Made by a program: the position numbers and the translations under genes. The notes under the pieces are model-generated. The model did no database searches. It had not been told where the DNA came from and saw only the letters and a program-made list of their open reading frames with translations. From a virus: a DNA stretch of 24,679 nucleotides. The first letter of the stretch is position 1, and the number at the start of each line of letters is the position of its first letter. The stretch lies in the IMG/VR virus record IMGVR_UViG_3300050821_003366, positions 1-24,679 of that record; one strand, 5' to 3'. This document shows positions 8,307 through 23,755 of this stretch, in pieces.

Positions 8307-9317
8307 TCAGATGTTCAAGAACGCGAGCCCGTCAAACTTGCCGTGCGCCTTGCACTTCACGTCGACAAGTTCGAGCAGGGACAGGATCGCGCCGATATAA
8401 CCCAGTTGGTTGTTCGGCAGCGTGGATTCGAATCCGGTGAAGCTGAAAGCCGCCCGCTCATGCAGGAACAGCGTCAGGTAGTTGGTGTTGATCAGGTAGA
8501 GCACGCCTTCCGGGCAGTACGGATCGGCGTAGAAGGGCACGCCGGCGACGTCGAGCGCGCGGAACAGGGATTCGACCTTCTTGTCGGCTCCGAAGCCGTC
8601 ACCGGGACGCACATTGTAGCGCTCGGAAGAGGTGAAATCCTGCGCCAGAAGCGTCCAGGTGCCAAAGCCCATGATGCCGATGGTGGGCATTTCGCCGGTC
8701 GTCTTGGAAACCTGGCTGATGTACTGCAGCATCAGGTTTCTTGTCGGCGTGGTGACGCCACCGTTGTGGACGTAGGTCGATTTCCAGAACGTGTTGGTGG
8801 TTCGGGACACGCCGCCGTAAGTGGTGGCAAAAGTTCCGTCATCGATCGCCGCCGGGAGTCCGATCAATTGCTGGGTGTTGGCCACGTTGTTGAACAGTGC
8901 GGTTGCGAACGTGTCGATGGTGACGTTGGTACTATCATTCATGCGCGCTTCGATCAGCGGCACCACGGAATAATCGAGCTGCACCAGGCCTTCCATGCCG
9001 AGGAACGGAATGGTGGAAACGAACGCCTTGAGATCGAATTCGGCGTTCTGGATACCGGGCTGCACGCCGGGTTGCTGGAACGAGCCGGAATAATCGACCC
9101 ATTGGCCGGCCACCATCGGGGTACCCTGCAGGGGGGCGGTGATCGGAGAGAGGCCGCCGGTCGCGACCTGGGCCGAGGAAAGCAGGGCCGCCATCAGGGG
9201 AGCGGATTTCCAGAGCTGGACATAAACCCTGGGCATGTAGGCGCGTCTTACGACGGCGGAAAGTTCGGAGGCGATAGCGCCGGACGCCGGGATGATGCCT
9301 TGGCCGAATACTGGCAA
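8307..9317 (-). CDS. Major capsid protein, 336 aa
   Basis: Main head shell protein, probably HK97-fold. Size, position after a scaffold-like gene, and sequence style support it: early ELSAVVRRAYMPRVYVQLW and SAPLMAALLSS, a central FLGMEGLVQLDYSVVPLIEARM helix-like part, and late EMPTIGIMGFGTWTLLAQ, FRALDVAGVPFYADPYCPEG, LYLINTNYLTLFLHE, typical of phage capsid proteins that end with residues placing the C-terminal strand. The start codon is TTG at 9317, chosen because AGGAGG stands five bases upstream; the next in-frame ATG (about residue 28) lies inside the conserved-looking part. The subfamily was not determined. Confidence 0.82.
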   Translation of the reverse strand: MPVFGQGIIPASGAIASELSAVVRRAYMPRVYVQLWKSAPLMAALLSSAQVATGGLSPITAPLQGTPMVAGQWVDYSGSFQQPGVQPGIQNAEFDLKAFVSTIPFLGMEGLVQLDYSVVPLIEARMNDSTNVTIDTFATALFNNVANTQQLIGLPAAIDDGTFATTYGGVSRTTNTFWKSTYVHNGGVTTPTRNLMLQYISQVSKTTGEMPTIGIMGFGTWTLLAQDFTSSERYNVRPGDGFGADKKVESLFRALDVAGVPFYADPYCPEGVLYLINTNYLTLFLHERAAFSFTGFESTLPNNQLGYIGAILSLLELVDVKCKAHGKFDGLAFLNI

Positions 9318-10620: not shown

Positions 10621-11073
10621 ATGGCCCACATCATCCGAAGCTGGATTTGCGAGAACGCCCGCTGCAGCGAGTGGTTTGAAAGCTGGGAAGCCAACCCGGA
10701 ATGCCCGAAATGCAAGTGCGTACGGGTTTCCTGGCGCCCGAACGGCGGCCATGTTGGGGGATATTCCAAGAATGCCGATGTCGAGCTGCGGGCGCTCGCC
10801 GACTGCTTCAAGCTTGACAATCTGAATTCGGCGGAGCGGGGGCGGGCGGCGAAGGTCATCAAGACGCCGCCCGTTCCCACTGGTTCGCAAGTGCACACTT
10901 TCGCCGGGGGGTTCACCGCGGCCATCAATCCCACGGCGGGGCCGCAATGCGTCCCGACGTCAAATCACCTGGACTTCAAGGTCAAGGCCGCGCCCGGATC
11001 CAGGCTTTCGCCTAGCGGCAAATATCCAAGCATGAGCAGCCACACCGCGGTTGAAGCCGCCCACAAACCGTGA
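10621..11073 (+). CDS. Zinc-ribbon protein upstream of portal gene, 150 aa
   Basis: The N-terminal ~35 residues hold five cysteines: C10, C15, C28, C31 and C33 (WICENARC, then NPECPKCKC). Cx4C and CxxC knuckles suggest one bound zinc. The rest is Gly/Ser/Pro-rich with no other domain seen. The minus-strand neighbour is 94 bp away and divergent; on the plus strand it overlaps the portal gene by GTGA (11070-11073), suggesting coupled expression. It might act as a small terminase-like or head-assembly factor, but nothing in the sequence proves it; the missing small terminase in this window makes that worth testing. Confidence 0.7.
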   Translation: MAHIIRSWICENARCSEWFESWEANPECPKCKCVRVSWRPNGGHVGGYSKNADVELRALADCFKLDNLNSAERGRAAKVIKTPPVPTGSQVHTFAGGFTAAINPTAGPQCVPTSNHLDFKVKAAPGSRLSPSGKYPSMSSHTAVEAAHKP

Positions 11074-12821
11074 TTATCCCCGACGAGCCCACACGGCAGG
11101 CTGAATTCATTCGCTGGGTGCTCGACGTCTGCCTGACCTCGAGGAAGGACCGGAAAGATTTATACGATCGCCGCCGCCAGTTCTTCCTTTATGGCACCTC
11201 GGCCGATCAGGAGGTCATCTACAACCGGATCGAGTCGCATCTCGATCTGGTTTCCTCGTTTCTCTACTCCCAGGACCAGGCGCAATTCGCCCTGTCGGCC
11301 CCGCTCAATTCATCTGATGAGGTGGTCAAGCAGTACATGGCGGCGGAGGACACCTTCAACAATGATTTCCGCGATGCGGGTTTATTCGATTTCTTCGGCG
11401 ATGCGATCATTGGAAGCCTGGTTTACGACAGCATCGTATTGAAGGCCGGCTGGTCCGACATCAACGAAGACGCCACTTGCAAGGTGATCATGCCGTGGCA
11501 GTTCGGGGTATTCTCGGAAGAGGTGACCGAGCTCGAGAGCCAGCCTGCCTTCGTCCACACCTATCACATCGATTACGACAATGCCTGTCAGAGATTGGCC
11601 AGAGCCGGCCTGTCTTCCAAGATCCCCGATCTTCCCGTGGTCAACACGCCGTTTGAATCGCCCTTCCCTGAGATGATCACCCGCATGATCATTTCATCTA
11701 CCGGCGGAGAAAACCTATCAGGCAACGTGCAGGGCTCGATCAATCCATCGTATCTGCCGCGACCTTCCTATCAGGCGAAGATCGACCGGCCCCTGGTGGC
11801 GTTCCACGAGCTGACAATATGGGATGACGAATGCTCGGACTATCGGGTTTTCTGGGTGGTCGACCCCGACATGATCATATCGGACTCCAAGAAGACCATC
11901 GAAGTCCTGAAGAAAACCGGATCGTTTGCTCCACAGCGCGAGCAGCAGCAGAAGATGTTCGACACCCAATGCAACCCGTTCTTTCCCAGGGAGCATCCCT
12001 ATACGCTGGTGAGGCCCTACAACATCTATGAATATTTCTGGGGCAAGGCGCACATCGAAAGCCTGATTCCCTTGCAGGAGTGGTCGAACGAGCGACTGGA
12101 GCAAATTCATGACATCCTGGACCGACAGGCCTATCCCCCGCGGGTGGGTTCTGGCTTCATGGGTCTATCAGATGAAAAGATGGAGGCTTTCGGGGGCGCC
12201 GATACCTGGGTGATGGATCAGCTGCCACAGGCTTCGATCAAGGAGCTTCACCCGGAAATGCCGCCCGACATCTTTGCCGACTACATGCAGATCGGGCAAC
12301 TCTTCATCGAGGCTTCGGGATTGACCGAGGTGCTGCAGGGCAAGGGGGCACCGGGAGTGAGGTCAAAGGAGCACGCCAAGCAACTAGGATCTACGGGAGC
12401 GGGCCGGGTCAAGAAAGCGGCCATCAGGCTCGAGGCTCCCCTGGTCAGGCTGGGCGACCTCGCCTTCAAATTGAACATGCGCAACAATGACAATCCGATT
12501 GTCCCCGACCCGAAGGAAGACGGCAAGCCCGGCAATGATTTCTACTACGCCAACATGGTCGGTGATTATGCTCTGCGGATTGCCGGCCACTCTCACTCGC
12601 CGCTATTCGTTGATGATACAAAAGAGCTGGCGGCGTTCCTGTTCAAGTCCCAGTCGATCGATCAGGAAGGTCTGCTGCGATTGCTCAATCCGCCGAACAG
12701 GGACAACCTGATCCACTCGCTCCGAGCCCGCCAGAAGCGCAGCGCGAAGGCCGCCCAGATGAAGGCTCAGATGGGAATTCCGGACAAGCCGAACGGCAAG
12801 GGCAGAGCCGCCCACGCTTGA
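11070..12821 (+). CDS. Portal protein, 583 aa
   Basis: Dodecameric head vertex through which DNA is packaged and ejected. The size and pattern are those of short-tailed-phage portals: helical N-terminus with charged segments (LTSRKDRKDLYDRRRQFFLYG), SHLDLVSSFLYSQDQAQFAL, a DFFGDAIIGSLVYDSIVLKAGW helix-strand clip region, a long central helix near NIYEYFWGKAHIESLIPLQEW and NERLEQIHDILDRQA, then late SGLTEVLQGKGAPGVRSKEHAKQL and a basic C-terminus. The start is GTG inside GTGA shared with the preceding stop; GAAG lies upstream. It is on the opposite strand from both capsid and terminase genes. Family assignment is by pattern, not search. Confidence 0.85.
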   Translation: MIIPDEPTRQAEFIRWVLDVCLTSRKDRKDLYDRRRQFFLYGTSADQEVIYNRIESHLDLVSSFLYSQDQAQFALSAPLNSSDEVVKQYMAAEDTFNNDFRDAGLFDFFGDAIIGSLVYDSIVLKAGWSDINEDATCKVIMPWQFGVFSEEVTELESQPAFVHTYHIDYDNACQRLARAGLSSKIPDLPVVNTPFESPFPEMITRMIISSTGGENLSGNVQGSINPSYLPRPSYQAKIDRPLVAFHELTIWDDECSDYRVFWVVDPDMIISDSKKTIEVLKKTGSFAPQREQQQKMFDTQCNPFFPREHPYTLVRPYNIYEYFWGKAHIESLIPLQEWSNERLEQIHDILDRQAYPPRVGSGFMGLSDEKMEAFGGADTWVMDQLPQASIKELHPEMPPDIFADYMQIGQLFIEASGLTEVLQGKGAPGVRSKEHAKQLGSTGAGRVKKAAIRLEAPLVRLGDLAFKLNMRNNDNPIVPDPKEDGKPGNDFYYANMVGDYALRIAGHSHSPLFVDDTKELAAFLFKSQSIDQEGLLRLLNPPNRDNLIHSLRARQKRSAKAAQMKAQMGIPDKPNGKGRAAHA

Positions 12822-12850
12822 TTGCAAAAATTCATTGATCGGGATATTTT
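12822..12850 (+). promoter_or_regulatory. Candidate promoter after the portal gene
   Basis: TTGCAA (12822-12827), 17 bp, TATTTT (12845-12850). Each box has 4 of 6 consensus bases, so this is moderate evidence. Transcription would begin near 12857 and give a ~160-nt RNA ending at the terminator, covering a hairpin and a 15-codon ORF. Confidence 0.35.
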
Positions 12851-12872
12851 CAAATCAGCCTCACTGATTTGA
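12850..12872 (+). other. Perfect hairpin in the leader of the mini-ORF
   Basis: CAAATCAG (12851-12858), loop CCTCA, CTGATTTG (12864-12871): eight perfect pairs plus an outer T-A. No T-run follows, so it is not a terminator. An alternative pairing CCTCA/TGAGG (12859-12863 with 12870-12874) is mutually exclusive with it, and a second small hairpin GGGCG...CGCCC follows at about 12879-12894. This could be a regulatory RNA structure or protein-binding site. Confidence 0.55.
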
Positions 12873-12923
12873 GGTGATGGGCGTAAGTCCGCCCGCCAAT
12901 CCCAACAAGGAAAGGAGCCTATC

Positions 12924-12971
12924 ATGAAGCGTAAGCACAGGCGCGGTGGCCGCAAGCATCGCCGGAAGTAA
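12924..12971 (+). CDS. Highly cationic 15-residue peptide
   Basis: The frame reads MKRKHRRGGRKHRRK followed by TAA. AAGGAAAGGAGCC lies just upstream, a near-ideal Shine-Dalgarno with 7-bp spacing from AGGAG. Twelve of 15 residues are Lys, Arg or His, arranged as two similar halves (KRKHRR, GG, RKHRRK). It sits alone between the portal gene and a strong terminator and is too short for standard gene callers. The composition is that of a nucleic-acid-binding peptide, such as an arginine-rich RNA-binding motif or a protamine-like DNA condenser; this is inference. Whether the peptide is made is untested. Confidence 0.55.
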   Translation: MKRKHRRGGRKHRRK

Positions 12972-12992
12972 GCCCTCCCTTTGGAGAGCGAG

Positions 12993-13017
12993 AAACACCC
13001 CTACGGGGGTGTTTTTT
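12993..13017 (+). terminator. Rho-independent terminator with UACG tetraloop
   Basis: AAACACCCC (12993-13001), loop TACG, GGGGTGTTT (13006-13014), then further Ts to 13017. Nine pairs closed by C(UACG)G, an exceptionally stable UNCG loop. It ends the portal/mini-ORF transcript; the convergent gene stops at 13020, so it may also separate the two directions, though its U-run is poor on the minus strand. Confidence 0.88.
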
Positions 13018-13019
13018 AT

Positions 13020-13262
13020 TTACCACCCGCCATCTATATCGGCCTGTCCGGTGAGAACCAGCCACGCATCACGAATGCGATCACGTCGCACCGACAGATA
13101 CCGGACAAAGCGCTGGCGGCGGGTTGGTTTGGGAGCAGCAGGCCCGTCGGCGTATAGACTGGTGCTTAGCAGTCGCTCCATTTCGGAATAGGAGTTGTTG
13201 ATGCGCTTGATAAGCGCTTCCCTCGTGATCTCTTCAAGAAGTTCTTGATTGGAAGTGGTCAT
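13020..13262 (-). CDS. Small unknown protein at end of terminase operon, 80 aa
   Basis: Start taken at 13262 (MTTSNQELLEEITREALIKR), with a GGTG element a few bases upstream; an open frame reaches 13337 but would overlap the upstream gene. The N-terminal half is an acidic/basic helix, the C-terminal part is strongly basic (KPTRRQRFVRYLSVRRDRIR). No family seen. Its TAA is immediately beside the convergent terminator. A DNA-contacting or packaging accessory role is possible given the neighbouring terminase, but unproven. Confidence 0.65.
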   Translation of the reverse strand: MTTSNQELLEEITREALIKRINNSYSEMERLLSTSLYADGPAAPKPTRRQRFVRYLSVRRDRIRDAWLVLTGQADIDGGW

Positions 13263-13275
13263 ATCTGAACACCTT

Positions 13276-13515
13276 TCACCCGAGGAAATGTTTGTGGGCA
13301 GCATCATCGATGCGCTCAAGCATTTTGACACAATCATCCATGGTCACCTCACCGTAGACAAGAGGCGACTGACTCGATGATCCGAGATCATCGACAATAT
13401 CGGTGAAGAGATCACGCAATCGTTCGATCTCCACAAGTGCTTCGTGTAATGGCCCATTCGAACTTTCCCTGTAGTTTTTTAATTCCAGGGCTCCCATTTC
13501 AGCAATTTTTTTCAT
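13276..13515 (-). CDS. Small unknown protein coupled to terminase, 79 aa
   Basis: The ATG at 13515 overlaps the terminase TGA as ATGA. The protein (MKKIAEMGALELKNYRESSN...) is acidic and mostly helical: LHEALVEIERLRDLFTDIVDD, then MDDCVKMLERIDDAAHKHFL. No domain recognised. Size, helical character and tight coupling leave open a role as a small terminase-like or packaging accessory protein; usually that gene lies upstream of the large subunit, so this is weak. Confidence 0.65.
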   Translation of the reverse strand: MKKIAEMGALELKNYRESSNGPLHEALVEIERLRDLFTDIVDDLGSSSQSPLVYGEVTMDDCVKMLERIDDAAHKHFLG

Positions 13516-15359
13516 TGCTTCACCGTGATGTTCATGCGCTTCAGATAATTGACGATGACGCGTTCGGTAGGAGGTGTGCCGCCCTTTTCTTCGATCTCCA
13601 GGGATTTCGATAGAGACAGGCCGAGCACTTTCACCTTGGGCTGCACCCATGAATTCCACGCCTGGTAAGCGAGTGCTGCCGCCATCACGCGATCGTCCTT
13701 CGCCCTGCCCTCCGCTCCGATGTGGCCGGCGTCGTTGACGATGCGGCGCATTTCCTCGAGCAGAGGCACCGAGCGCGGGATCATTCTTCCCAGCTCGATT
13801 CCGTTTTTCATCTGGTTCATGGCTCGGCGCTTGAGATCTTCCGTGGTCTTCCACTGGAACAGCATTTCTCCGCCGCCGGGGTTGTCCATCCTTCTATAGA
13901 AATAGTGCCGCATGTTGGCGAGGATATTCCGGATGTGGGAGTTTTCGTCAGTGGGCCGTATTTCGCTTGCCGTTCGTCTGACCTTCTCCAATTCATCGAA
14001 CACCGCTTGCCCCGGCCCGTTCATTTCCAGGATCGGCATCAGGAAGGTGGGTCCGTAGTATCCAGCGAGATGAGCCAGAACCCAGGCGCATTGGTAGGTG
14101 GATGGTTGGGTACTGCAATACTCCGCGACTTGAACCATGCAGTCGGAGTAGCACCTCCAGATCGAAATAACAGTTCGATCTGCTTCATCTGAGCTTCCGT
14201 AGGCCGGGTCGCAACCCAAAGCGTAGTATCCAAACCTGGAGGCATCTTCCCAGATTCTAAGTTCTGCTCTGACATCTTTTACCTGCCTGATTTCTGTTTC
14301 ATCGAACTTCATCCCGAGCTTGTATCTGAAAGTCTGGAACGCATTCTTCTTCGCTTGCCGCAGGCATTCGGTCATTGCCTCGACGGTGAAGAATTTAGAG
14401 CCGGTAGCCTGGAAGGCGTCGGCCTCGGTCCACGGATATTCCTGATCCATCATGGATTGATCGCCGTCCTTTTCCGCGGCGAGGTGCCAGCGATACCAGG
14501 CGATCTGTTGCAGCGATATTTCGAAATGATAGCTTTCCCTTACCTCCCTCACACGCTTGCGCTCGAGCGGCGTCAATGTCGACTTGATGCCATCGGTCAT
14601 GTAGTGTTCGAAGAACGGATGACTTACCGGAATTTGATTCCTTTCGTCCCGCCACCAGCCGATGAAAATAGCGCGCTTCGTCGGATCGGTCTTGGTGATC
14701 TCCCACATATCCCAGAAATGATTGAAGCCGTTGGCTGTCGTCTCGTAGATCTGGAGGCGGTGAGGATAGAGTGACGACGTTTGGGAACGAAACTCCGCGA
14801 GGTCGTCACCATTGCCATAAAAGGCACATTCCGTCGCATGAACAAAGTTTGCGGCACCGCCACGACCGAGACCACCTTTGCGAACTTCCGACGTGCCAGC
14901 AATAAGGTATCTAAACTTGGATGCATTTTTAAGGATGAGCAGATTCCGGTTATGACGCACGTAATTGATGCGGTATTTCGTCGGTGTCTCGGCAAAGAAT
15001 ACTTCCACCGTCGCGCGAAAATCATCCCTCGCCTCCTCCTTGTGGGTGATGAACACCCCAAGCAATCCCTTGTGCTCGAACGCCCAGAACATATCCAGCG
15101 CGAGAAAAAATGAACTGATGCCGAGCTGACGCGCTTTCAGGATGACAAACGTCGTGATGCCCTTCGACAACCCGTCCTCCAGCTCCTTCAAAAGATAGCG
15201 CTGCGAGCCCAAAAGCCGAAACGGCACCAGGCCGAAATCCTTGCTCTGCACCTTGAGTTTGGAAAGGAAAGACAAAAATCGATCGGTCGGGAAAGGCGCG
15301 ACACCGACATATTCGATCGTGAAGGCGTCATCAGGGCCGATGATTTCAGTATCGGTCAT
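13512..15359 (-). CDS. terL: Terminase large subunit, 615 aa
   Basis: ATP-driven DNA packaging motor and headful nuclease that docks on the portal. Visible elements: Walker A-like KARQLGIS (75-82), Walker B with E177 (FVHATECAF), coupling-motif candidate YETTANG (205-211), then the RNase H-like nuclease with D384 (LGCDPAYG), E445 (ILEMNGPG) and D555/D556 (AKDDRVMA), the expected three acid positions in order. Length is normal for the family. No good Shine-Dalgarno stands before the ATG; it overlaps a possible upstream stop as ATGA, so coupling to a short ORF is likely. The downstream 79-aa gene overlaps the end. Confidence 0.92.
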   Translation of the reverse strand: MTDTEIIGPDDAFTIEYVGVAPFPTDRFLSFLSKLKVQSKDFGLVPFRLLGSQRYLLKELEDGLSKGITTFVILKARQLGISSFFLALDMFWAFEHKGLLGVFITHKEEARDDFRATVEVFFAETPTKYRINYVRHNRNLLILKNASKFRYLIAGTSEVRKGGLGRGGAANFVHATECAFYGNGDDLAEFRSQTSSLYPHRLQIYETTANGFNHFWDMWEITKTDPTKRAIFIGWWRDERNQIPVSHPFFEHYMTDGIKSTLTPLERKRVREVRESYHFEISLQQIAWYRWHLAAEKDGDQSMMDQEYPWTEADAFQATGSKFFTVEAMTECLRQAKKNAFQTFRYKLGMKFDETEIRQVKDVRAELRIWEDASRFGYYALGCDPAYGSSDEADRTVISIWRCYSDCMVQVAEYCSTQPSTYQCAWVLAHLAGYYGPTFLMPILEMNGPGQAVFDELEKVRRTASEIRPTDENSHIRNILANMRHYFYRRMDNPGGGEMLFQWKTTEDLKRRAMNQMKNGIELGRMIPRSVPLLEEMRRIVNDAGHIGAEGRAKDDRVMAAALAYQAWNSWVQPKVKVLGLSLSKSLEIEEKGGTPPTERVIVNYLKRMNITVKQ

Positions 15360-15454
15360 TGGAGCCGCGCATTATGAAGCACCACGACGTTGACGCTTGG
15401 GAATTCTCCATGCGTCCTTATGTCATGGCTCCACGGAAACAATCGCGCCGCCAT
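15356..15454 (-). CDS. Possible short coupling ORF ahead of terminase, 32 aa
   Basis: The gap between the Wzy_C-like gene stop (15423) and terL start (15359) is covered by a frame MAARLFPWSHDIRTHGEFPS... ending in TGA that overlaps the terminase ATG. It has no visible Shine-Dalgarno. A competing 21-codon frame (15411-15346, MENSQASTSWC) has AAGGA at good spacing and overlaps the terminase start. One of the two may deliver ribosomes to terL, which itself lacks a clear binding site. Protein function is doubtful. Confidence 0.25.
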   Translation of the reverse strand: MAARLFPWSHDIRTHGEFPSVNVVVLHNARLQ

Positions 15455-16556
15455 GTGGACCAGATACGGATCCTGGCGCAGCCGCCCCCGGTAGGAAATC
15501 AGATCCGCGCTCACGCTCGAAACCGCGAAGGTAAGCGCCAGCGCCAGCAATATGACCCGCGACGATACAACCGATAAACGCAGACAACGGTGAATGAAGC
15601 GGGAAGTAAAAAAGCGCGAGCGAACAGAACGCCGCGAAGACCGGCCATTGCCTCTGTTCTGATCGAGCCAGAACCGCTGCCATGAGGGCGAAGAAAAGGA
15701 TAGATCCGAGTCCGGCCTCGAAGGCAAATTGGATGTAGTCATTGTGGGCGAACTCCGGACGTTCCATTACCTTCTGGCCAAGTTCCTCCACCATCATCCA
15801 CAGATCGGTGAAGGTGCCGGGGCCAAGGCCGAACCATCTGAGATTACTATACGCCGCATCCCAGATTTGCATCCGCTGAATATCGGATGGTGAGGGATGG
15901 AAGTACATCAAGACGAGAGCAAACAGCACGATCCCGGCGGCAACGCGCCAGCCCAGATATCTGCCGGCAAGACCCACCGCCACCACCAGCCAGCCACCGC
16001 GGCTGTACGACAGAATGAACAGCGGCAGCACGCCGGGGATATAGCGCCATTCGCCATGGCACACCAAGCCGACAATCACCAGCGCCGACACCGAGCCAGA
16101 CACCAGCGGCGTATCGAACAGGCCAGGATGGCCGGCGAGCTCAGCCACAGGAAACGGATGAAAGCCCGACGCCTCCGCGATCGACACAACAGACGAAACC
16201 GAAAGCCCGATCGCCAGTCCTCGCCACAAGTCACCAAGATCATCGAGTGTCGAACCCAGCCAGAACGACCCAGCCCAGATCAACACAACCGCAAAACCCC
16301 AACCCGAATCGTAAGGGTTAACCGCCCACGTCAAAGACAAGGCAGTAAAAAAAATAAACCAAATCCCCAGCCAGTGAACGCGCGTCACGGAACCACTTCG
16401 CCACAGCCCTAAAGCGCCAGCGATCGCCATCACCCCCCACTGCGTCGGGATCGATGCCCCGGTCCAGCCAGGCACGTAGCACACGGCTAGGATGAGCCCG
16501 AGCCAGAACAGCGACGTATGACGCGCTGCGGATCGCAAGTTCGACTCGGACATCAT
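15423..16556 (-). CDS. O-antigen ligase/polymerase-type (Wzy_C) membrane protein, 377 aa
   Basis: Polytopic inner-membrane protein with about 10-12 hydrophobic segments (from residues ~15-35 to ~325-345). Family hallmarks: SRGGW around R186, GLGPGTF (243-249) in the long periplasmic loop, and HNDYIQFAFEAGLG beginning at H271, all typical of WaaL/Wzy_C proteins acting on undecaprenyl-linked glycans. The last ~35 residues are Gly/Pro-rich and basic. It overlaps a 54-aa membrane-protein gene by ATGA and lies directly upstream of terL, so it is likely transcribed with late genes rather than from a lysogenic promoter. It probably changes host surface polysaccharide; ligase versus polymerase cannot be decided. 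Confidence 0.82.
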   Translation of the reverse strand: MMSESNLRSAARHTSLFWLGLILAVCYVPGWTGASIPTQWGVMAIAGALGLWRSGSVTRVHWLGIWFIFFTALSLTWAVNPYDSGWGFAVVLIWAGSFWLGSTLDDLGDLWRGLAIGLSVSSVVSIAEASGFHPFPVAELAGHPGLFDTPLVSGSVSALVIVGLVCHGEWRYIPGVLPLFILSYSRGGWLVVAVGLAGRYLGWRVAAGIVLFALVLMYFHPSPSDIQRMQIWDAAYSNLRWFGLGPGTFTDLWMMVEELGQKVMERPEFAHNDYIQFAFEAGLGSILFFALMAAVLARSEQRQWPVFAAFCSLALFYFPLHSPLSAFIGCIVAGHIAGAGAYLRGFERERGSDFLPGAAAPGSVSGPHGGAIVSVEP

Positions 16557-22611: not shown

Positions 22612-22820
22612 AGCTGCGTACCAGACCAATCACCGCGCTCCAGCGATTGTGCGTCATCCAGGCGACGATCGGCCCGCTGATCCCGTTCCGCGTTGGGATT
22701 GCGCGCAATCGGCAAGGCCCATTCTTCAAGCCTCATACCGTGCAGGGGCTTGTGAATCGAGGATATCTGCGCGGCTACCGATGCGGCCGGCATTTCTATT
22801 TCACAGCTCGGAGCGCCTGA
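22608..22820 (+). CDS. Small basic winged-helix-like protein, 70 aa
   Basis: MKLRTRPITALQRLCVIQAT and a C-terminal half FKPHTVQGLVNRGYLRGYRC, then GRHFYFTARSA: recognition-helix-like T-V-x-x-L-V-x-R-G-Y-L followed by a beta hairpin, as in small winged-helix domains. Strongly basic. Its TGA overlaps the exonuclease ATG as TGATG. Probably DNA-binding; exact role unknown. Confidence 0.65.
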   Translation: MKLRTRPITALQRLCVIQATIGPLIPFRVGIARNRQGPFFKPHTVQGLVNRGYLRGYRCGRHFYFTARSA

Positions 22821-23755
22821 TGCCAGATCCTACCAAAGCAACAATCAGCGCCACCGAAATGTCGGGCCTTCTCGGCGTCTCGCCCTACGTGACGAAATGG
22901 ATGCTCTATCAACGCTTCGCCAAGGGCATCGATGCGCCGGGCCCAGACCACAACAGACTTGATTGGGGGACGAAGATGGAGCCCCTGCTTCTCGAGCAAG
23001 CTGCGGCGGATCTGAGGCTCGAGGTGACGACCAATCGGCAGCCGGACGGATCGCAGATTTACGTGCGACGCGGGCTGCTCGGTTGTTCGCGCGATGCAGA
23101 TATTTACGATCCGCAACGCGGTCCCGGCGCACTCGAAACCAAGTGCTGCTTCGACTACAAAATTCTGATGCAGGAGTGGGACGGCGGCAAAACGCCTCCT
23201 CGCCAGCACGAAATCCAGCTTCAGCAGCAGATGTATGTCGGCAACGGACATGTGCCTTTCGAATGGGGATGCATCGCATTGTGGTGCGGCGGTGACATGA
23301 CCTATTTCCAGCGGAAGCCAATGCTGGATTTGTGGGCGAAGTTCGAAGCCGAAGCGATGCAGTTCTTTGATGACGTGAAGGGCGGCACCGAGCCAGAGCC
23401 GTTTGGTTCGCCGATCGAAGTCCCGCTACTCAAGCAGATATTCGACAAACCTACCGGCGAGGTCATTGATGCGGTCGTGGTGCTCGGCGAGGTCGAGGCC
23501 ACGAAGCTTGCTCAGCGCGTGGTCGACGCTGAATACCAGCGCGTTACTCGGTTGGCGGCCGAGAAGTTTGAGAACGAGACCAAGGCCAAGTTGCTCGGCC
23601 TGATGCAAGAGGCTGACGAGTTGGAATTACCACAAGGTATCCGCGTCAAGATAACGCGATCCGCGCGTGCCGGCTACACTGTGAAGCCGACGAACAGCGT
23701 CACGGTCAAAGCGCACATCCCGCAACAGATCGATGGAGCGTTCGGTGGCATCTGA
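22820..23755 (+). CDS. YqaJ-family recombination exonuclease, 311 aa
   Basis: Lambda-exonuclease-like nuclease that would resect double-strand ends for the annealing protein encoded next. Motifs: early SATEMSGLLGVSPYVTKWML, WGTKMEPLLLE with E54, RDADIYDP with D94, LETK with E106 and K108 (the D-x(n)-E-x-K core), and the Gln-rich QHEIQLQQQMYVG (about 129-141) typical of YqaJ. The C-terminal third is a charged helix and a final beta region. Start at 22820, overlapping the previous stop as TGATG; an open frame to 22649 overlaps the winged-helix gene and was not used. Confidence 0.88.
   Translation: MPDPTKATISATEMSGLLGVSPYVTKWMLYQRFAKGIDAPGPDHNRLDWGTKMEPLLLEQAAADLRLEVTTNRQPDGSQIYVRRGLLGCSRDADIYDPQRGPGALETKCCFDYKILMQEWDGGKTPPRQHEIQLQQQMYVGNGHVPFEWGCIALWCGGDMTYFQRKPMLDLWAKFEAEAMQFFDDVKGGTEPEPFGSPIEVPLLKQIFDKPTGEVIDAVVVLGEVEATKLAQRVVDAEYQRVTRLAAEKFENETKAKLLGLMQEADELELPQGIRVKITRSARAGYTVKPTNSVTVKAHIPQQIDGAFGGI

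Follow-up and report, generated by a model that had tools for sequence, protein, structure and literature searches.

A conserved micro-gene beside the portal gene of uncultivated tailed phages encodes a predicted basic peptide that may act on packaged DNA

Small basic phage proteins that act on host machinery are known, and arginine-rich peptides of the lambda N type bind boxB; lambda N is an early protein of ~100 residues that acts on long downstream operons. A large-scale survey by Fremin et al. in 2022 reportedly predicted conserved short phage genes that standard annotation misses. The J/VP8 proteins of microviruses (phiX174, gokushoviruses, SpV4) are small arginine-lysine-rich peptides, encoded among structural genes, that bind and guide packaged DNA (PMC11281519), and in these ssDNA T=1 phages they carry a C-terminal capsid anchor that ends in phenylalanine. 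The adenovirus peptide X/Mu, which is very basic and has 19 residues in its mature form, condenses dsDNA within the virion, where it is present at 100-300 copies (PMC7998265); a viral protease releases it from a precursor of 79 residues.

We analysed a 24,679-nt stretch of viral DNA, hereafter the window, in which the original prediction had placed a stand-alone unit for a 15-residue peptide between the portal gene and convergent genes. The micro-ORF runs on the + strand from an ATG at 12924 to a TAA at 12971 and encodes MKRKHRRGGRKHRRK, in which K, R and H make up 12 of the 15 residues. Like J/VP8, the micropeptide is very short, rich in arginine and lysine and encoded among virion genes (12/15 basic residues; portal-adjacent in 80/96 loci), but J/VP8 is about twice as long, and the micropeptide, with 10-19 residues in tailed dsDNA phages, is an analogue without shown homology. 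No hydrophobic or aromatic C-terminal anchor of the J/VP8 kind was found among family members, which end in K or R. The micropeptide is similar to mature Mu in its shortness and very basic character, whereas it is encoded directly, by a micro-ORF that specifies the basic peptide alone without a precursor, and the viruses are unrelated. Since J/VP8 and Mu each differ from the micropeptide in a defining feature, we describe it as a peptide that may work like them, not as a member of either group. With lambda N it shares a short arginine-rich sequence and nearby RNA hairpins, whereas the micropeptide unit is linked to late genes and has its own terminator. The family also resembles the small phage protein families of the 2022 survey in being conserved, short and overlooked by standard annotation. 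The relevant features of the window are listed here.

8310-9317, - strand: major capsid protein gene (53% identical to its MW202753 counterpart; PHROG 9953)
11070-12821, + strand: gene for the 583-aa portal protein, constant neighbour to the micropeptide gene (PHROG 332, E 2e-6)
12822-12850, + strand: candidate promoter TTGCAA-17 nt-TATTTT (consensus match 8/12)
12851-12871, + strand: originally predicted 8-bp hairpin with 5-nt loop, from sequence and fold; not conserved
12879-12894, + strand: GGGCG-UAAGUC-CGCCC hairpin of the leader, which recurs among soil-clade members (leader sequences and fold of 15 relatives)
12911-12917, + strand: Shine-Dalgarno sequence AAAGGAG, 6 nt from the ATG
12924-12971, + strand: micropeptide gene (15 aa), from conservation in the portal family and apparent purifying selection
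12993-13017, + strand: intrinsic terminator with 9-bp stem, TACG loop and T-rich tail (equivalent in 30/31 soil units)
13512-15359, - strand: large terminase gene

The complete small unit of the original prediction is confirmed in the window, including the ORF with a consensus Shine-Dalgarno sequence and the UACG-loop terminator. Exactly one ATG ORF of 12-30 aa in the window combines at least 70% K/R/H with a strong ribosome site, and none appeared when the window was shuffled 300 times with its dinucleotides preserved. The terminator hairpin, AAACACCCC-TACG-GGGGTGTTT at 12993-13014, is followed by TTTATTTA; a simple promoter/terminator scan missed it because its stem runs into the T tract, and the same scan did not return the window promoter at 12822-12850. 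An intrinsic terminator closes 30 of 31 soil-type units. The promoter fared less well than the terminator: the proposed sequence is in place, and many soil relatives have a promoter-like site at the same position, near the portal stop codon (e.g., TTGACG-16-TAGCCT, TTGCCA-17-TAGCCT and TGGACA-17-TATCTT), but taken alone the window site, with 8/12 matches, is not significant (shuffle p ~0.13). In soil relatives whose capsid genes share the strand (e.g., L009, L012, L014 and L023), a strong promoter-like TTGACG-17-TATCAA was seen by eye 3' of the terminator, before a proline-rich ORF.

The product of the neighbouring portal gene is ~30% identical to the annotated portals of the GenBank phages MW202753 and MW202825, and its AlphaFold model, which is of moderate confidence (pLDDT 71), matches solved podovirus portals, with the Pan3 portal as the best match (E 3e-14) and T7 gp8 also matched. 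Across loci, the neighbours of the micropeptide gene are the portal (PHROG 332/156) and the major capsid protein (PHROG 9953) genes. The arrangement of these genes varies. In the window, L003 and L007, the portal-peptide island has the opposite orientation to the capsid and terminase genes, which indicates that it is not bound to the capsid operon; at L118 and loci related to it, the micropeptide gene runs divergently from the portal and collinearly with the capsid genes. Insertions of ~300-600 bp separate the portal from an intact micropeptide unit in L004-L006, L017, L020 and L030, and some of these resemble antisense homing-endonuclease genes.

Portal-guided searches and the two GenBank phages together provided 96 portal-family loci. 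In 80 of them the portal is closely followed by a basic micro-ORF that has a ribosome site, a feature the scans required. All of these downstream micro-ORFs are on the + strand except that of L019. Under strict criteria, 75/96 loci have one within 700 nt downstream of the portal, compared with three matches elsewhere in 749 kb of both strands, among which L036 (a copy that overlaps the portal end) and L055 (a relocated copy on the minus strand) are family members. Most of the inspected exceptions with enough sequence carry a variant, extended or relocated copy (L076/L077/L093; an extended micro-ORF in L047; a minus-strand copy far from the portal in L048), and several others are short contigs; no micro-ORF was seen in L101. 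The peptides of relatives have 10-19 residues. The soil clade has a single micro-ORF, and the freshwater clade has two tandem ORFs ~110 nt apart, e.g., MYKKMKRGRKTRR and MARMKRKGRKGRK; the gene persists there although the portals are only ~31% identical to that of the window. That the unit stands alone, as originally proposed, is borne out by its survival intact after portal-side insertions, by its inverted or relocated copies in L019, L055 and L048 and by the near-universal terminators of the soil clade. Such peptides were also expected to escape gene callers, and the micro-ORFs of MW202753 and MW202825 are indeed unannotated, their annotators having in part called ORFs on the opposite strand. 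Used as a DNA query against annotated phages, the unit gave chance matches only.

We also searched the whole collection with a pattern that uses no portal information (a ribosome site, ATG, nine VRN codons and an R-K-TAA end), which matched at least 119 stretches. Of the 95 in-frame micro-ORFs among the matches listed, 67 follow a portal on the same strand at a distance of up to 1.5 kb and 12 are divergent beside one, so that 79/95 are portal-adjacent, counting portals found with queries that were in some cases taken from the matched loci themselves via PHROG 156 and the portals of L144, L167 and L189, assigned by size and position only. One further micro-ORF lies 1.8 kb from a portal, and 15/95 are in loci without a portal, seven of which form one spurious jumbo-phage family. 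The latter, MAKRGGKGGKRK beside jumbo-phage terminase genes (L136 etc.), was rejected as a family member; a 130-aa ORF in a different frame encloses it, and no portal adjoins it. Of 42 distinct cases among the matches listed, 16 have a tandem partner. The micro-ORF was not found in the model and control phages T7, P22, HTVC010P, CRP-7, Hydrogenobaculum phage 1 and two Vibrio phages, nor in Mx8, Mx9, BUCT555, ppBjS10J-1 and 45A6, which are cultured and have related capsid proteins; this indicates that tailed phages in general do not need such a peptide.

Codon-level comparison indicates that the conserved object is a protein. Over 117 units, pN/pS is 0.30-0.40, with pS of 0.46-0.72 in the main groups, and the 15-16-aa soil peptides keep K, R or H in 66-78% of residue changes at basic codons, against 12-13% expected from random single-base changes; because the comparisons allow no gaps and lack phylogenetic independence, these figures give the direction of selection, not its exact strength. 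Third codon positions are the most variable in soil peptides, and length changes stay in frame. The check named in the original prediction, that relatives should combine synonymous change with retention of the basic residues and the ribosome site, was passed. The start codon and ribosome site are kept, with the start of L020 as the exception: at L020:8365-8411, ATC replaces the ATG of all others while the ribosome site and residues are retained, which may reflect an error or a rare start. Comparison thus identifies the unit as a protein-coding micro-gene of the portal neighbourhood with the signature of purifying selection, and on these grounds the gene is almost certainly real and translated. 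The alternative that the conserved element is RNA and the ORF incidental draws on the conservation of leader RNA structures, but we consider it barely credible because the frame, the basic residues and the ribosome site persist while third positions vary most, and because the peptide persists while the leader structures differ between clades.

The leader RNA is structured in both clades, although the soil and freshwater clades have no single structure in common. The 8-bp hairpin of the original prediction (CAAATCAG-CCTCA-CTGATTTG) is present in the window but was not found in most relatives when leader sequences were compared. Furthermore, the proposed promoter would start the RNA near 12857, inside the 5' arm, so that the whole hairpin could not form. 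Given that it is unconserved and incompletely transcribed from that promoter, and that other leader structures are the conserved ones, its suggested boxB-like role is not upheld. Soil-clade leaders instead have a common outer stem of the GGGCG/CGCCC type with a variable inner hairpin, and their fold energies are better than those of shuffles at some loci and not at others (z -3.3 to +0.8; -2.4 in the window). In the freshwater clade, an H-type pseudoknot lies in the spacer between the tandem ORFs, ~20 nt 5' of the second (L053-L107 and L025), with stem 1 AAGGG/CCCUU-like and stem 2 GGCUGCCU/AGGUGGCC-like. It covaries at seven pairs versus 3.4 in shuffles (0/500) and has 23 doubly changed cells versus 4.9 (0/500), in an alignment that favours structure somewhat, as the variable loop was cut out and the stems were hand-registered first; covariation also far exceeds that in slid registers. 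Rfam searches returned no known RNA family, and the pseudoknot likewise has no match there. The conserved structures would probably set the level of micropeptide translation or the stability of its mRNA.

Based on these comparisons, we propose that the peptide works on DNA inside the virion and is most likely late, highly expressed and packaged with the genome, a reading to which we assign a probability of about 0.48. The micropeptide would be made late and in abundance, for which the tandem copies, strong ribosome sites and terminators fit a high dosage. Its arginine and lysine residues would confer non-specific DNA binding, it would enter the procapsid during packaging via the nearby portal, and there it might neutralise or condense the packaged genome as J/VP8 and Mu do. 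If so, it would be a protamine-like component of tailed dsDNA phages, which is not generally recognised, and would bear on how capsids handle the charge and pressure of DNA. Several observations weigh against this reading: the cultured phages with related capsids and the model podoviruses lack the micro-ORF, the portal-peptide island can be inverted with respect to the capsid genes, the freshwater pseudoknot may hint at a function in RNA, and the peptides have no hydrophobic anchor like that of J/VP8.

The main rival is an RNA-binding regulator, in which the arginine-rich peptide, bound to the structured leader of its mRNA or to a different RNA of the phage, would control translation or transcription termination. 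Autoregulation of this kind owes its place to the covarying freshwater pseudoknot beside the ORF; in both clades the ORF is immediately preceded by a leader structure, and the micropeptides resemble arginine-rich RNA-binding motifs in composition. We nevertheless regard it as rather unlikely, since the leader structures differ between clades and the upstream boxB-like hairpin that a lambda N counterpart would have is absent from most relatives. Antitermination in particular lacks a target: the soil transcript stops at the terminator right after the peptide (30/31 units), which leaves nothing downstream to antiterminate, and in the window the genes that follow are convergent. A leader peptide or attenuator was rejected on similar grounds, given that the next window gene is convergent and that, throughout the soil clade, the ORF is followed by terminators.

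Two further readings are each improbable. A host take-over peptide, a polycation acting on host ribosomes, the nucleoid or RNA polymerase, has precedent in small basic phage proteins that act on host machinery and fits a unit that can relocate or invert, but linkage to a late structural portal gene across deeply diverged phages would be unusual for host-directed early genes, which tend to cluster elsewhere. Alternatively, a few copies on the portal channel or terminase could aid DNA entry or retention without coating the genome; the gene does stay portal-side where the island is inverted (window, L003 and L007) and near the portal despite endonuclease-like insertions, but the tandem genes and their strong ribosome sites suggest a high copy number, and L118 and its related loci have the gene running away from the portal and with the capsid genes. 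Less probable still is a ribonucleoprotein of the micropeptide and its conserved, structured leader RNA that works at the portal while DNA is packaged; it would give a large lineage of uncultivated tailed phages a peptide-dependent equivalent of the phi29 packaging RNA.

The literature searched on phage small proteins and basic viral peptides, which did not include the largest catalogue of small phage genes, contained no description of the family, which within that scope appears to be undescribed. Its significance lies in the recurrence of a selected gene of 10-19 codons, under the size limit of common gene callers, that stays attached to the portal in a large uncultivated group of bacterial viruses with portals ~31% identical or less. 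Genes this short can thus be detected through tests of neighbour and pattern.

Some other genes were noted near these loci. A 377-aa protein encoded beside the terminase gene (window 15423-16556, - strand) has a weak match to the Wzy_C O-antigen ligase family (2.5e-7, just under the Pfam cut-off), and a YqaJ-like recombinase (Pfam 8e-12) is encoded at 22649-23755 on the + strand. In MW202753 (L025:4573-4737), a 54-aa ORF with a basic C-terminus lies between the portal and the first micro-ORF, and other freshwater loci show similar spacing in this region.
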